NCBI GenBank assembly: GCA_020073485.1
Contig: JAIQFB010000012.1
Location: 62,001-126,000 of the forward strand
DNA from: Terriglobia bacterium
Lineage (GTDB): Bacteria > Acidobacteriota > Terriglobia > Acidiferrales > UBA7541
Length of the DNA stretch: 64,000 nucleotides
Reading direction: 5' to 3'
Numbering within the stretch: position 1 is the first letter of the stretch; each line of letters starts with the position of its first letter. Shown here in pieces: positions 7,057 to 62,665 of the stretch. The notes beneath the pieces were generated by a model that did no database searches, was not told where the DNA came from, and saw only the letters and a list, made by a program, of their open reading frames with translations. Made by a program: the position numbers and the translations under genes.

Positions 7057-7130
7057 GTAGGACAGGCACTCTTGCCTGTCCCTTACAGCTCGGCAAGGCT
7101 GGCGCGGACAGGCAAGAGTGCCTGTCCTAC
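7057..7130. repeat. Perfect inverted repeat with GTAG/CTAC ends (GGACAGGCACTC core)
   Basis: Two 25-base arms (7057-7081 and 7106-7130) are exact reverse complements, separated by 24 bases. Each arm is itself nearly palindromic (GGACAGGCACTC / TTGCCTGTCC). The ends are GTAG and CTAC, as in REP/BIME elements. It lies in the divergent intergenic region between the RDD gene and the Cdd1-like gene. Confidence 0.85.
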
Positions 7131-7473: not shown

Positions 7474-7553
7474 AGTAGCGTAGGCTTCAGCCTGCGCGGT
7501 TTAAATGGCACACGTGCGAGATCTCAACCGCGCCGGCTGAAGCCTACGCCACT
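7474..7553. repeat. REP/BIME-like palindrome, GGCTTCAGCC family, two arms
   Basis: The left arm 7475-7501 (GTAGCGTAGGCTTCAGCCTG...) and right arm 7526-7552 (...CGGCTGAAGCCTACGCCAC) are inverted copies of 27 bases with few mismatches, separated by 24 bases. It lies between the convergent 3' ends of the Cdd1-like gene and purM, so it may terminate both. Confidence 0.85.
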
Positions 7554-16124: not shown

Positions 16125-16210
16125 GTAGCGAGGAAGCGTAGACTTCAGCCTGCGCGGTTCAAATGTTGCACGAGTAAGCTCTAACCCGCGCAGGCTGAAA
16201 CCTACGCTAC
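16125..16210. repeat. REP/BIME-like palindrome, GGCTTCAGCC family, two arms
   Basis: The left arm from 16125 (GTAGCGAGGAAGCGTAGACTTCAGCCTGCG...) and right arm 16183-16210 (...GCAGGCTGAAACCTACGCTAC) are imperfect inverted copies with GTAG/CTAC ends. The right end overlaps the glmU stop codon (TAG, 16207-16209 on the minus strand). Confidence 0.8.
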
Positions 16211-17664
16211 TTCTTCTTGGGGGAAATTTTGCGCTTTGCTTTCTTGCGGCTTCGCGATTTCGCGGGCTTTGCGATTGCCGCCAGTTCGCGACGCCGCATC
16301 TCGGCCCATCCGAGTTTGTTGACTTGCTGGCCGCGGGCGAGGCCGAGGGCATCGGGGGGCACGTTCTTGGTGATCACCGATCCAGCTCCCACGTACGCGC
16401 CGTCGCCGACGCGCACAGGGGCGACCAGCGCGGTGTCGCTGCCGATAAAGACGCCTTTGCCAATCGTGGTGGGATTCTTGTTCACGCCGTCGTAGTTGCA
16501 GGTGATCGTGCCCGCTCCAATGTTGGTGCCGCTGCCGACACGCGCGTCGCCCAGATAGGTCAGGTGCATGGACTTCACACCCTCGCCGAGTACGCTCTTT
16601 TTCACTTCCACGAAATTGCCGACGCGCGCGTTTTCTTCCAGGCGCGCGCCGTCGCGCAGATGCGCGAACGGGCCCACCTGCACGCCGCGCGAGAGGTGGC
16701 TGGCGGTCACGATGGAATAGGGCTTAACCAGCACACCGTCTTCGAGCACGGCGTCGGAAAGGATGCTGCCGGCGCGCACCGTGCAATTCTCGCCGATGCG
16801 CGTCTTGCCGAGCAGTTGCACGCCGGGCTCGATGCGCGTGTCCGCGCCGATCGTTACTTCCGGATCGATCAGGATTGTATCCGGCAATTCCAAGGTCACA
16901 CCCGCGTCCATCACGGCGGCGCGCTTGCGGCGGCGGAATACCGCGTCCACCGCGGCCAGATCGGCGCGCGTGTTGCATCCCAGGACTTCATCGGGATCGG
17001 CAGCCAGGACCGCCTGCACGTTTTCGCCCTTCTGCCGCAACACGGCGATGGCGTCGGTCAGGTAAAGTTCCTTATGCACGTTCTGCGGCTTGAGCGAAGC
17101 CAGGCACGGCCACAACTTGTCGAGCGAAAAGCAGTAGATGCTTGAATTGATCTCGTGGATCGCGCGTTGCTCCCCGGAGAGCGCGGAATCTTCCACGATG
17201 GCCGCGACCGAGCCGTCTTCGCGGCGCACGATGCGGCCGTACCCGGCCGGATTTTCGATTTCCGCGGAAAGGATGGTCGCGGCGGCGCCCGATTCCCGGT
17301 GCGCTGCAGCCAGAGCGGCAAGCGTTTCGGTGCGAATCAGCGGCGCGTCGCCCGGCAGCAATATGGCGAACTTCACGCGCGCGGGGATTGCGCGCCGCGC
17401 CACCTGCATGGCGTGGCCGGTGCCGCGCTGCGGCTGCTGCAACGCCGTCTCGACGCCCAACGGCGCGACCGCTGACGTTACGTCCTCAGCCTGATGGCCA
17501 ACCACCGCAATAATTTCCCGCGCTTTCAGCGGCTGGCAGGCGCGCACCACATGCTCGACCAGAGGACGCCCTCCGGCGCGGTGCAGCACCTTGGCCAGCG
17601 CGGATTTCAGGCGCGTGCCCTTGCCAGCGGCCAGGATCACGATTGCGATGTCGGGGTTAGCCAT
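16207..17664 (-). CDS. glmU: Bifunctional UDP-N-acetylglucosamine pyrophosphorylase / glucosamine-1-phosphate N-acetyltransferase
   Basis: A 485-residue two-domain enzyme that makes UDP-GlcNAc for peptidoglycan and LPS. The uridyltransferase domain begins IVILAAGKGTRLKSALAKVLH (the GxGTRMxS-type nucleotide loop). The C-terminal left-handed beta-helix contains ARVGNFVEVKKSVLGEGVK, LGDARVGSGTNIGAGTITCNYDG and KNPTTIGKGVFIGSDTALVAPV. It ends in an unusual Lys/Arg-rich tail (about 20 residues). The ATG at 17664 fits the family start; the frame is open to 17733. It lies directly downstream of lpxC. Confidence 0.96.
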   Translation of the reverse strand: MANPDIAIVILAAGKGTRLKSALAKVLHRAGGRPLVEHVVRACQPLKAREIIAVVGHQAEDVTSAVAPLGVETALQQPQRGTGHAMQVARRAIPARVKFAILLPGDAPLIRTETLAALAAAHRESGAAATILSAEIENPAGYGRIVRREDGSVAAIVEDSALSGEQRAIHEINSSIYCFSLDKLWPCLASLKPQNVHKELYLTDAIAVLRQKGENVQAVLAADPDEVLGCNTRADLAAVDAVFRRRKRAAVMDAGVTLELPDTILIDPEVTIGADTRIEPGVQLLGKTRIGENCTVRAGSILSDAVLEDGVLVKPYSIVTASHLSRGVQVGPFAHLRDGARLEENARVGNFVEVKKSVLGEGVKSMHLTYLGDARVGSGTNIGAGTITCNYDGVNKNPTTIGKGVFIGSDTALVAPVRVGDGAYVGAGSVITKNVPPDALGLARGQQVNKLGWAEMRRRELAAIAKPAKSRSRKKAKRKISPKKK

Positions 17665-19001: not shown

Positions 19002-19934
19002 ATGGCGTCGCCATTCCATATCGTTTCGAATTCCGTCCCGGTCACGCCTGCCGGGGTTTCCCTGGACCCAGCTGCGCATCCTCGCCCGGATTGGCTGCGC
19101 GTCAAATTTTTCAATGGTCCGAATTACCAGGAACTGAAACGCATCATGCGCACGCTCGGCCTGAACACCGTGTGCGAAAGCGCGCGGTGCCCCAACATGG
19201 GCGAGTGCTGGGAAAATCGCACGGCGACGTTCATGATTCTGGGAAACATCTGCACGCGCGCGTGCGGGTTTTGCGCCGTGCCATCGGGAAAGCCCGCGGC
19301 GCCTCCGGACGAACTGGAGCCGGAGCGCGTGGCCGAAGCCGCCGAGCGCATGGGTTTGCGCTATGCCGTGGTGACATCCGTGAATCGCGACGACCAACCC
19401 GACGGCGGCGCCGCCATTTTCGCCCGCACGATCCAGGAAATTCACGCGCGTATTCCGGCCTGCAAGGTGGAAGTTCTCATCCCCGATTTTCGCGGGGACT
19501 GGAAGGCGCTCGAAACCGTGATTGCCGCGGGGCCTGAAGTCTTGAACCACAACACGGAAACCGTACCGCGCCTGTATCACGAAGTGCGCAAGGGCGCGAT
19601 CTACGGCAGGTCGCTCGAGCTTCTGCGCCGGGCGAAACTGCTTGCGCCGGAAATGCCCACCAAGACCGGGCTGATGCTGGGCCTGGGCGAAACGCGCGAG
19701 GAAGTCCTTGCGGCGATGCAGGACCTGGCTGCGCAGGGCACCAACATCCTGACGCTGGGGCAGTACATGCAGCCCACACGCGAGCATCTACCTGTCGTAC
19801 GCTTCGTTCACCCCGATGAATTCGCGGAATACAAAACGCTGGGCGAGCAAATGGGTTTTGCGCACGTAGAATCGGGTCCTCTGGTGCGTTCCTCGTATCA
19901 CGCCTTCGAGCAGGAAGCCGCCGCGCACGTTTAA
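19002..19934 (+). CDS. lipA: Lipoyl synthase
   Basis: A 310-residue radical-SAM enzyme that inserts two sulfurs into octanoyl groups on E2 and GcvH proteins. Both Fe-S clusters are visible: CESARCPNMGEC (auxiliary cluster, CxxxxCxxxxxC) and CTRACGFCAV (CxxxCxxC, SAM cluster). MLGLGETREEVLAAMQDL, LTLGQYMQPTREHLPV and the C-terminal GPLVRSSYHA (auxiliary cluster Ser) match LipA. No lipB is nearby. Confidence 0.97.
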   Translation: MASPFHIVSNSVPVTPAGVSLDPAAHPRPDWLRVKFFNGPNYQELKRIMRTLGLNTVCESARCPNMGECWENRTATFMILGNICTRACGFCAVPSGKPAAPPDELEPERVAEAAERMGLRYAVVTSVNRDDQPDGGAAIFARTIQEIHARIPACKVEVLIPDFRGDWKALETVIAAGPEVLNHNTETVPRLYHEVRKGAIYGRSLELLRRAKLLAPEMPTKTGLMLGLGETREEVLAAMQDLAAQGTNILTLGQYMQPTREHLPVVRFVHPDEFAEYKTLGEQMGFAHVESGPLVRSSYHAFEQEAAAHV

Positions 19935-19955
19935 TAATTTCTCGACGCTAAAATA

Positions 19956-20051
19956 TGCCGTCATTCCGAGCAAAGCGAGGAATCCCTCTGCGGTTCTTGC
20001 CTTGCGGGCCGAAAAAAAGAGGGATTCCTCGCTTTGCTCGGAATGACGGCA
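19956..20051. repeat. Perfect 34-base inverted repeat, TCATTCCGAG family
   Basis: Arms 19956-19989 (TGCCGTCATTCCGAGCAAAG...) and 20018-20051 are exact reverse complements of 34 bases, separated by 28 bases. An imperfect copy is at 1468-1576. It follows the lipA stop by 21 bases, so it could fold into a very stable hairpin at the 3' end of that mRNA. No flanking transposase or target duplication is seen. Confidence 0.9.
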
Positions 20052-20162
20052 TAACCCAAGAAACCCAACGCCGGAAGAGTCATTTGCCAGGCCTCCCTCC
20101 GCATCGACCGTTGAAATGGCGTAAGATTCTCTCCCATAATGTCTCCAAAGAGGAAAAATTAG

Positions 20163-22025
20163 ATGAGAACCGACCGGACTTGCGCCATCCCGTTGTTTGG
20201 TCTCGTGGTTTTCGCTTTCGCGCTTGGCGCAAGCTTGCCTCTTTCCGCGCAGACCGCCGCACCCGTTACCGGGGCGGACGTCTATCAAAAGCGCTGCGCC
20301 CGGTGCCACGACGAGGGCGTTTCCCGCGCGCCGGCCAGGCAAGTCCTGCAAACCATGTCCGCGGCGCGAATCCTGCGCACGCTTGATTTCGGCCTGATGA
20401 TGGCCGTGGCTTATCCGATGAAGCGCGAGGAGCGCGTGGCTGTCGCGAACTTTCTGGGAACCCCGGGAGATGATGCTCCGACGTCACCGAAGAATCCTTG
20501 CGCGGCGGGGATGCAGCCTCTTTCCGCGGCTTCTGCCGCAAACTGGGCGGGATGGAGCCCGGATCCTTCCAATAATCGTTACCAGAACGCCGAGCAGGCC
20601 GCGCTCGGCATGGCGCAGGTCCGGCATCTCAAATTGAAATGGGCTTATGGATTTGCAGGCGACGTCACTTCGTTCGCGGCGCCCACCGTGTTGAATGGAA
20701 CGCTTTTCGTCGGCAGCGCCGGAGGTCTTGTCCAGGCGCTGGACGCAAAAACCGGCTGTGTGCACTGGACATTTCCAGCCAACGGCCCCGTGCGCGCGGC
20801 TATTTTGCCGGTTCATAACGGATCTTCGTACACGCTCGTGTTCGGCGATCTGATCGGGTGGGTCTACGCGCTCGATGCAAAATCCGGGAAACTGGCGTGG
20901 AAAAAGAGGCTGGAGGAACACGAAGCCACCCGGTTGACCGGCTCGGCAGTGGCGCTAAACGGTATCGTTTTCATTCCCGCCGCGTCATGGGAAGAAACGC
21001 GTTCCACCGATCCGCAATATGAGTGCTGCACGTTTCGCGGGAGCGTCACGGCACTGCGCGTCCGGGACGGTTCGCTCGTTTGGAAATCGTACATGGTGGA
21101 CACGCCACAAAAGACCGGCACGAACAGCGTGGGAGTCCCGCAGTGGGGACCTTCCGGCGCCCCCATCTGGTCATCTCCCACCGTTGACACGAAGCGAGGC
21201 CTGCTCTACGTCACCACCGGCGACAATTACTCGGTTCCGGCGACCTCAACCAGCGACGCCGTGATTGCGCTCAACCTGAAAACGGGACGCATCGTGTGGA
21301 CGCAACAAACGTTAGCGAACGATGCATACACCTCGGCCTGCCGGAACAAGGGCGTCAATTGCCCCTCCACCAACGGGCCGGATTACGATTTCGGATCGTC
21401 GGCGTTGCTGGTTCACGCCCCGAACGGAAAGGAAATTCTGGTGGCCGGACAAAAATCCGGCGTGGTCCATGCGTTCGATCCGGACGCAAAGGGAAAACTT
21501 CTCTGGGAGACCCGCGTCGGCACGGGCGGCATTAACGGCGGCGTGCAATGGGGCATGGCCAGCGACGGACAAAAAGTGTATGCGGCCGTCTCCGATGTGT
21601 CCGCCGTCATGAACACCGCGGGCCCGGTCGGCGGCGCGACGTTTGATCCCGCCAAGGGCGGAGGCCTGACGGCGCTGCATCTGGAAGATGGTGCAACGGC
21701 GTGGTTCGCTCCCAGCCATCCATGCGATCCGCCGAAGCCCGGTTGCAGCCCCGGCCAGTCGGCCGCTCTGACCTTGATTCCCGGCGTGGTTTTTTCCCCA
21801 TCGCTCGATGGCCATCTTCGCGCGTTCAGCACCGAGGATGGCGAGATGGTCTGGGATTTCGATACGGCGACAACCTTTTCCACGGTGAACGGAGTTCCCG
21901 CCAACGGCGGCTCGATCGACGGCGCGGGCCCGGTGATTGCCGGCGGAATGGTGTTCGTCAATTCCGGCTACCCGCGCAACGGCGGCATGCCCGGCAATGT
22001 GCTGCTGGCGTTTGGGCCGGAGTAG
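20163..22025 (+). CDS. Secreted cytochrome c - PQQ-like propeller oxidoreductase (PVA-dehydrogenase-like)
   Basis: A 620-residue exported protein. The signal peptide covers about residues 1-30 (IPLFGLVVFAFALGASLPLSA). One c-type heme site CARCH (Cys45, Cys48, His49) follows. After about residue 115 comes a propeller of PQQ type (VGSAGGLVQALDAKTGCVHW, ALDAKSGKLAWK, TTGDNYSVPAT, FGSSALLVHAPNGKEIL). The order cytochrome then propeller and the NRYQN segment resemble polyvinyl-alcohol dehydrogenase-like quinoproteins, which oxidise alcohols in the periplasm. The substrate is unknown. Perfect 20-base inverted arms start at the last base of the stop codon. Confidence 0.85.
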   Translation: MRTDRTCAIPLFGLVVFAFALGASLPLSAQTAAPVTGADVYQKRCARCHDEGVSRAPARQVLQTMSAARILRTLDFGLMMAVAYPMKREERVAVANFLGTPGDDAPTSPKNPCAAGMQPLSAASAANWAGWSPDPSNNRYQNAEQAALGMAQVRHLKLKWAYGFAGDVTSFAAPTVLNGTLFVGSAGGLVQALDAKTGCVHWTFPANGPVRAAILPVHNGSSYTLVFGDLIGWVYALDAKSGKLAWKKRLEEHEATRLTGSAVALNGIVFIPAASWEETRSTDPQYECCTFRGSVTALRVRDGSLVWKSYMVDTPQKTGTNSVGVPQWGPSGAPIWSSPTVDTKRGLLYVTTGDNYSVPATSTSDAVIALNLKTGRIVWTQQTLANDAYTSACRNKGVNCPSTNGPDYDFGSSALLVHAPNGKEILVAGQKSGVVHAFDPDAKGKLLWETRVGTGGINGGVQWGMASDGQKVYAAVSDVSAVMNTAGPVGGATFDPAKGGGLTALHLEDGATAWFAPSHPCDPPKPGCSPGQSAALTLIPGVVFSPSLDGHLRAFSTEDGEMVWDFDTATTFSTVNGVPANGGSIDGAGPVIAGGMVFVNSGYPRNGGMPGNVLLAFGPE

Positions 22026-22090
22026 AACAGGCTTCAGCCTGTTGTTTTTTGAATGTACAGAGCGCCAGCCCAACAGGCTGAAGCCTGTTC
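22025..22090. repeat. Palindrome, GGCTTCAGCC family, perfect 20-base arms
   Basis: Arms 22025-22044 (GAACAGGCTTCAGCCTGTTG) and 22071-22090 are exact reverse complements, separated by 26 bases. The arm begins with the last base of the TAG stop of the propeller gene. It lies just upstream of the molybdate regulator promoter. Confidence 0.85.
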
Positions 22091-22117
22091 CACCAGACCA
22101 AATCATATAAATCCGTA

Positions 22118-46368: not shown

Positions 46369-46478
46369 AGTTTTTCTCTGCACAGGTCCCGTCCGCCAAA
46401 ATCCCAAATTTGAACCGCAAGTTTGCGCAGATCATACGCGGCAACCGGCATCAGTTCAAGCGGAGTCGCGGAAGTCGA

Positions 46479-46565
46479 GTGGCGCAAGCTTCAGCCTGTG
46501 GGTTTTGGTTGCTGCAAGATCGATCGTGCTCGAACTAAACCCCGCAGGCTGAAGCCTGCGCCACT
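46479..46565. repeat. REP/BIME-like palindrome, GGCTTCAGCC family, GTGG feet
   Basis: The left arm 46479-46506 (AGTGGCGCAAGCTTCAGCCTG...) and right arm 46537-46565 (...CAGGCTGAAGCCTGCGCCACT) are inverted copies with few mismatches. It lies between the CHRD gene start and the tcuB-like gene end. Confidence 0.8.
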
Positions 46566-61999: not shown

Positions 62000-62665
62000 T
62001 CAGGAGTTTCCCCAGGAAGAAAGCGGCAAGCTGGTTTGCGTCGCTCCGGCCGCCCAGCAGGCGGCCTCGCGGACCGGGGCAAAGGAAAACCGGTGATGCG
62101 GCGAGGGTCCATGCACACGCAACGCGGCCAGATGAACGGGCGTGGCGTAACCCTTGTGCTGCGCTAGGCCATATTGCGGATAAATCAAATCCCATTCCGT
62201 CATCATGCGGTCGCGTTCGACTTTTGCGATGATCGATGCCGCGGCGATGGACACGGAAAGCGAATCCCCGTGAATCAGCGACCTCTGCTCGACCATCACG
62301 TCCAGCTGCATTGCATCCAACAGGAGATAATCGGGAGAAATTTTCAACTGGCTCAGGGCCTGGGTCATGGCCTGGCGGCTGGCCTGATAAATATTCCAGG
62401 CGTCGATGCGGCGAGCATCCACTTCCGCAATGGCCCACGCCAGCGCGTGCTCGCGGATGCGCAGCGCCAGCACCTCGCGGCGTTCAGCAGGAAGCTTTTT
62501 GGAATCGTCCAGGCCGACAATGCGGCGCTTCGGATCGAGGATCACAGCCGCGGCAACCACCGGACCAAACAAGGAGCCGCGCCCGACTTCGTCCAGGCCG
62601 GCAATTTTTTGCCAGCCGCACTTGCGCGCTTCGCGTTCGTACCGGGACGAGCACCGCTTGGGCAT
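62000..62665 (-). CDS. rnhB: Ribonuclease HII
   Basis: A 221-residue enzyme that removes ribonucleotides from DNA-RNA hybrids. GLDEVGRGSLFGPVVAAAVIL holds the catalytic Asp-Glu pair, DYLLLDAMQL the third Asp, and SIAAASIIAKVERDRMM the family motif. YPQYGLAQHKGYATPVHLAAL is also typical. ATG 62665 is taken from family alignment; the frame is open to 62761. It is transcribed towards the TPR gene. Confidence 0.96.
   Translation of the reverse strand: MPKRCSSRYEREARKCGWQKIAGLDEVGRGSLFGPVVAAAVILDPKRRIVGLDDSKKLPAERREVLALRIREHALAWAIAEVDARRIDAWNIYQASRQAMTQALSQLKISPDYLLLDAMQLDVMVEQRSLIHGDSLSVSIAAASIIAKVERDRMMTEWDLIYPQYGLAQHKGYATPVHLAALRVHGPSPHHRFSFAPVREAACWAAGATQTSLPLSSWGNS

Follow-up and report, generated by a model that had tools for sequence, protein, structure and literature searches.

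What is the perfect inverted repeat that lies just downstream of lipA, and what put it there? It lies in a stretch of 64,000 nucleotides (the window; positions 62001–126000 of contig 6) from a genome of 5.05 Mb in 46 contigs. A sequence-only reading of the window had described identical arms of 34 nt around a loop of 28 nt. The perfect arms and the 28-nt spacer were confirmed, but the arms (19954–19989 and 20018–20053) are complementary over 36 nt (100%). The element lies 25 nt past the lipA stop codon, and its arms have no GTAG foot and no RAYT beside them. That it belongs to a separate class from the GTAG-footed repeats of the window was borne out: its tag is CGTC, as in the second REP superfamily (PMC3733652). 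The answer that we consider likely is that the lipA element is a non-autonomous CGTC-REP dimer, which uses a trans-acting, Ssn-like GIY-YIG nuclease whose gene lies elsewhere in the genome, flanked on both sides by the same dimer. The parts of the locus are as follows.

19002–19934, plus strand: lipA, lipoyl synthase (ORF list; TIGR00510, 1.7e-116)
19954–20053, no strand: CGTC-REP head-to-head homodimer, the whole 36/28/36 inverted repeat (57 other complete dimers in the genome)
19960–20047: core of the homodimer, GTC...GAC
19959–19984, plus strand: left arm hairpin (from the sequence as read, the predicted fold and outer-stem covariation)
19959–19962, CGTC tag; 19963–19967, ATTCC stem; 19968–19969, GA; 19970–19976, inner hairpin GCAAAGC; 19977–19978, GA; 19979–19983, GGAAT stem; 19984, C: parts of the left arm
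19985–20022, no strand: tails CCTCT / AGAGG and the inter-hairpin spacer (CCTC...GAGG ends kept in nearly all copies; the middle varies)
20023–20048, minus strand: right arm, same hairpin as the left arm (CGTC tag read as GACG at 20045–20048 on the plus strand)
20163–22025, plus strand: downstream gene, a PQQ-type beta-propeller protein with a possible N-terminal cytochrome c domain

The predicted fold of the left arm is ...(((((..((...))..)))))., and the rare inner hairpin GCAAAGC is common to both arms. As single-stranded DNA the lipA-proximal stretch has a predicted folding energy of -49.9 kcal/mol, compared to -14.3 ± 2.4 for shuffled sequences (z = -14.9), and one long hairpin across the homodimer is predicted to be much more stable than its two arms folded separately, so that either form may be the one recognised.

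A further copy near 1.5 kb, which the same reading had called diverged and decayed, does exist. However, it is a heterodimer with two different inner hairpins.

1471–1571, no strand: core of the second CGTC-REP dimer, whose left arm has the inner hairpin GCCTGCTGTTGGC and whose right arm, on the minus strand, has GGGCCCGCCTTTGGCCC, both self-complementary
7057–7130, 7474–7553, 1351–1427, 16130–16213, 22022–22093 and 46478–46565: GTAG-type REP pairs, inverted repeats unrelated to the CGTC dimers, which mostly have GTAG/GTGG feet (GTAGGACAGGCTTCAGCC type)

The 1471–1571 dimer sits between a gene for a CPBP-family protein and the convergent tyrS. It is missing from the orthologous site in the sister species G301, where q602–823 of our genome is replaced by about 45 nt. 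The GTAG-type repeat that it adjoins (1351–1427) is missing there too.

Copy number was derived from motif searches of the genome, not from a full scan. A gapped half-motif had 74 matches and the broader half-motif GTCATTCC-N(0-22)-GGAATC found 174 arms, compared to none for either reversed control. From these searches, 58 complete two-arm elements, selected as tag-outside pairs, were extracted and compared. The genome holds roughly 60–90 copies of the CGTC-tagged hairpin pair, so the repeat is widely dispersed and not confined to the two copies first noticed.

The arms share one plan: a (C)GTC tag, an ATTCC/GGAAT stem, GA on each side of an exchangeable inner hairpin, and lastly C and CCTC. 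These GA..GA steps, which were not imposed in the extraction, frame the inner hairpin in 107/116 arms, and the base preceding GTC is C in 79% of the 116 flanks. The inner hairpin occurs as GCGAAGC, ACGAAGT, GCGGAGC, GCAAAGC, GGCATGTCTTTTGCC, GGCGCGCTTTTCGCC, ACCCGCTCCTGCGGGT, GGGCCCGCCTTTGGCCC and other variants, and 24 of the 28 distinct inner sequences are self-paired (4.3 expected). The two arms differ in 31/58 elements, and in about 20 of these the inner hairpins are quite unlike each other; if one long hairpin were all that mattered, this would not be expected. Tandem sheared G-A pairs are well established in nucleic-acid chemistry, and the facing GA/GA steps could form them. Outside the hairpins the flank consensus is A-rich, ends in CC and fades to background at about 22 nt. 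Since the consensus is at background beyond that point, we discarded the idea of a GTAG-like half-REP at the outer ends of the copies.

The stem pairs are maintained well beyond this genome. We scanned GTDB genomes with GTCATNNNGAGCGAAGCGANNNATC, in which complementarity of the two NNN triplets is not required. The triplets were fully complementary in 118/138 matches (permutation mean 40.7, maximum 57), and in 94/103 matches on viral contigs (24.5 expected); both counts ignore kinship. Nine different fully paired triplet combinations occurred in the GTDB scan, with covarying outer stems including TCT/AGA, CCT/AGG, TCC/GGA, TTC/GAA, GCT/AGC and CCC/GGG, and its records span at least 16 phyla, judged by record titles. 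One contig from the viral collection, IMGVR_UViG_2808606664_000001 (46.8 kb; loci L281, L243, L276, L280 and L297), has an unusual density of CGTC arms, with 11 arms in 2.6 kb at L281.

The sequence-only reading took the perfect conservation of the lipA arms as a sign of recent spread. Among elements in which both arms are short, the arms are identical in 27/38, and seven dimers have arms that share a non-majority variant, compared to 0.48 expected and a permutation maximum of 4. Thus, some process maintains the match between the arms of an element, and we infer that this is template switching in the hairpin. Because arms are homogenised in this way, the perfect arms at 19954–20053 are not by themselves evidence of youth. 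The 3′ region of lipA carries CGTC dimers in two species (that of G301, L350, has entirely different inner hairpins), a GTAG-type pair in one congener (G297, L353) and nothing in another (G299, L352). This intergenic site is a hot spot of REP exchange. The argument from the arms does not stand; recent turnover is nevertheless shown, by the compared sites that lack the element in G301.

Turnover was measured on 19 copies in our genome for which both flanks could be aligned to G301 (flank identities 79–92%). The orthologous site in G301 lacked the element in 16 cases, held it in full in two and in part in one. The CGTC element thus turns over fast, in a presence/absence comparison that cannot always separate gain from loss. 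At the cleanest sites, the distance between the aligned flanks was 158 nt in our genome and 6 nt in G301, or 173 nt and 10 nt, so that the unit gained or lost is about 150–165 nt. No target-site duplication was recognised at the compared sites.

What could move such a unit? No transposase family recurred among the neighbours of the GTDB and viral REP loci, and the sole lead was a single GIY-YIG gene flanked on either side by REPs. Our own genome has a gene in this arrangement.

C24:52389–52694: P0001, GIY-YIG gene (PF01541, 1.7e-13)
C24:52246–52334 and C24:52717–52805: near-identical REP dimers on either side of P0001

The other three of the four GIY-YIG genes in the genome have no CGTC hairpin nearby. 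P0001 encodes a small, single-domain GIY-YIG protein of 102 aa, whose fold is fixed by Pfam and PDB profile matches. Its catalytic residues are conserved: across 28 homologues Y8, Y18, G20, R28, H32 and N84 are invariant and E65 nearly so.

With P0001 as query, homologues were collected in four sets: 297 phylum genomes, 61 relatives, viral contigs and a plasmid collection. A single-sequence GIY-YIG search of the viral contigs found none, while an alignment search found 16. Paired CGTC hairpins within 400 bp of the gene occurred at 1.53/kb in the phylum set (0.027 in shuffled sequence, 0.06 at 700–1500 bp), 2.08/kb in the relatives (0.026 and 0.03) and 0.52/kb in the viral set (0.009 and 0.11). 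The value for the named plasmid-collection records was 2.84/kb (0.047 shuffled); these loci reach only 700 bp out and hence give no far control. In three of the four sets, flank hairpins are 50–80 times commoner than in shuffled sequence. With the strict motif, 14/29 homologues of the phylum set and 11/14 viral homologues had no flank REP, and most homologues in the relatives set with only 32–41% identity also lacked them.

Each flanked locus has its own hairpin variant, in Acidobacteriota, Cyanobacteriota, Bacteroidota and Proteobacteria including Neisseria. Examples are found in Planktothrix, Azospirillum, Aeromonas, Neisseria gonorrhoeae, Rhizobium, Shinella, Spirosoma and Photobacterium. 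In three genomes (G217, G202 and G120), the REP type dispersed over the genome is the type that flanks the GIY-YIG gene. Read from the sequences, the pairing of the GIY-YIG gene with CGTC REPs is both physical and cognate, in several phyla. The enzyme probably recognises and spreads the CGTC hairpins.

The nuclease gene and its REPs also come and go together. The unit is absent from the orthologous site of G301 (760 nt in our genome, 203 nt in G301), and G299 has it elsewhere, with homology to our locus confined to the REP plus the gene. Such genes can sit within conserved gene clusters: in Azospirillum lipoferum AZO_p3 (L426) the GIY-YIG gene is inserted between sufB and sufC, and in Sphingomonas paeninsulae (L434) a GIY-YIG match falls in an rnc-era stretch. 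At another locus (L316, 1420–1977, minus strand), the longest nuclease ORF runs through a REP dimer, and its beginning is translated repeat (..PSFRAKRGIPPSFPRSKNPRGIPRSARNDGG..). At REP-flanked nuclease genes the starts assigned by automatic annotation may be wrong, and ORFs made of translated repeat should not be taken for proteins.

How might the nuclease act? Neisseria has GIY-YIG nucleases, the Ssn proteins, which reportedly cleave single-stranded DNA at its NTS repeats and modulate natural transformation. If so, the principle of such a pairing has a precedent, and our contribution is to tie it to the CGTC-REP class, to describe the modular hairpin with its GA frame and to give evidence for turnover. 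Among the papers covered by our literature search, none links GIY-YIG to REPs. In our reading, the GTC foot and GA-framed hairpin would be bound by the nuclease on DNA made single-stranded by replication, transformation or cruciform extrusion, and the nuclease would cut next to the hairpin. Through repair or re-ligation, new intergenic sites would then receive a copied or moved REP, either by itself or together with the nuclease gene. Cleavage and mobilisation are the steps that we infer.

The same pairing could be read in another way, with the nuclease as a barrier or transformation-control enzyme (for defence or as a DNA-uptake filter), the REPs as its marks, and their dispersal as a by-product of some other process. 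The reported role of Ssn and NTS in Neisseria transformation agrees with this, as does the existence of REP-bearing genomes without a detected nuclease: none was detected in G301 (84 arms) or in G094 and G163 (39 each). These genomes count against a strict need for the nuclease; in them it was either lost once the REPs had spread, falls in an assembly gap or is dispensable. However, the nuclease gene and its REPs are absent or relocated between sister species and the gene is inserted in clusters such as sufB–sufC, so that the pair looks like a selfish unit. We therefore regard the barrier as unlikely, though it is the best of the alternatives.

It is improbable that the repeat is a structural RNA at the 3′ ends of genes (an mRNA stabiliser, attenuator or terminator) that is kept for regulation. 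Such an RNA would account for the position of the copies: as judged by a simple ORF caller, 49 of the 56 classified lie between co-directional (29) or convergent (20) genes and only seven between divergent ones, two further copies lie inside predicted reading frames, and most fall in the first 100 nt or so after a stop codon. The hairpin is also very stable. Yet a position 3′ of genes is equally expected from insertion under purifying selection, and the copies absent at 16 of the 19 orthologous 3′ ends in G301 do not point to a conserved function of those genes. No intrinsic terminator (a GC stem followed by a T-run) was found in 19800–20250 and no Rfam family reached its gathering score with the element. 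The lipA-proximal repeat is not a terminator, and the RNA 3′ end that had been suggested at the hairpin found no counterpart in the sequence. The microRNA models returned by the Rfam search scored far below their gathering scores and were set aside as hairpin noise. Effects of the element on lipA expression, if any, are secondary.

Least probable of all is mobilisation by an IS200/IS605-type Y1 (HUH) transposase (RAYT or TIRYT), as hypothesised for the movement of GTAG REPs by RAYTs (PMC3733652): the genome does have three Y1_Tnp genes, but none adjoins a CGTC hairpin dimer, two adjoin other palindromes (e.g. CACCCTT/AAGGGTG), and a survey in 2013 saw no CGTC repeat beside any tyrosine transposase (PMC3733652), so these enzymes were rejected as the mobiliser. 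The three genes are L101, L102 and L103, on C45, C7 and C28, and the short palindromes beside two of them (CCGCACCCTTG.. / AAGGGTGCGG; GACCCTTTG..) resemble neither REP type of the window.

We return to the preferred reading, in which the lipA element is a CGTC-REP dimer served in trans by the GIY-YIG nuclease. CGTC REPs occur in a wide range of bacterial phyla, and their mover was left open when the class was defined (PMC3733652). A GIY-YIG partner with matching variants in each genome makes that question directly testable, and ties a bacterial repeat that is very common to a single enzyme family. A broader proposal, which we put forward tentatively and hold at a little under even odds, is that the ‘transposases’ still missing from the CGTC-REP superfamily are, throughout it, GIY-YIG single-strand nucleases. 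REP systems of a third kind would then exist that have no relation to RAYTs: a nuclease gene would travel together with its hairpin marks, in the form of single-stranded DNA, between genes as well as across phyla, and the inner hairpins would be exchangeable within a constant GA/GA frame.

The element can be compared with three known systems. Like Ssn and NTS, a small single-domain GIY-YIG nuclease is paired with a dispersed, cognate hairpin repeat. The homologue in N. gonorrhoeae (L428) is itself flanked by GTCATTCCCGCGCAGGCGGGAATC repeats. P0001, known here from sequence, differs in being 52% identical to this homologue, and the window repeats differ in having GA-framed hairpins.

CGTC-tagged REPs were defined by Di Nocera, De Gregorio and Rocco in 2013 as having a CGTC tag, AT-first stems of 8–9 bp, loops of 4–5 nt, 3-nt tails and head-to-head dimers, with no transposase gene associated (PMC3733652). 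Members, among them Neisseria dRS3 and Rickettsia RPE-4 and RPE-6, come from five phyla, none of which is Acidobacteria (PMC3733652). The window family is alike in its short hairpins with a 3-nt tail, its unpaired tag outside the stem (CGTC, the alternatives being TGTC/CCTC; 19959–19962, and 20045–20048 on the minus strand) and its AT first pairs. The stem is ATTCC/GGAAT, the GA step and two inner base pairs, which in short arms makes nine steps including two G-A mismatches. It is also alike in lying 3′ of genes as homo- and heterodimers that are mainly head-to-head (78 tag-outside, compared to 21 tag-inside and 12 tandem, in the GTDB and viral loci), and in having no adjoining Y1 transposase, including at the three Y1_Tnp loci of our genome. 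The loop departs from the definition, being 3 nt (AAA/GAA) in short arms or replaced by inner hairpins of 13–17 nt, but some member families have other loop lengths (PMC3733652) and loop length is a variable rather than an excluding feature. The window family differs in its host, an acidobacterium, with relatives in the GTDB scan from Acidobacteria/Terriglobia. It also differs in a stem broken by the constant GA/GA step, in an exchangeable inner hairpin of 7–17 nt and in its GIY-YIG partner gene.

Compared to RAYT/TnpA-REP systems (GTAG REPs, BIMEs and REPINs), the family has neither a GTAG/GTGG foot nor a repeat-flanked RAYT. It shares with them short tagged hairpins in inverted pairs, a gene flanked by its own repeats and a repeat type that matches the enzyme of the same genome. 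The tag is CGTC rather than GTAG, and the enzyme is a GIY-YIG nuclease rather than a Y1 HUH transposase.
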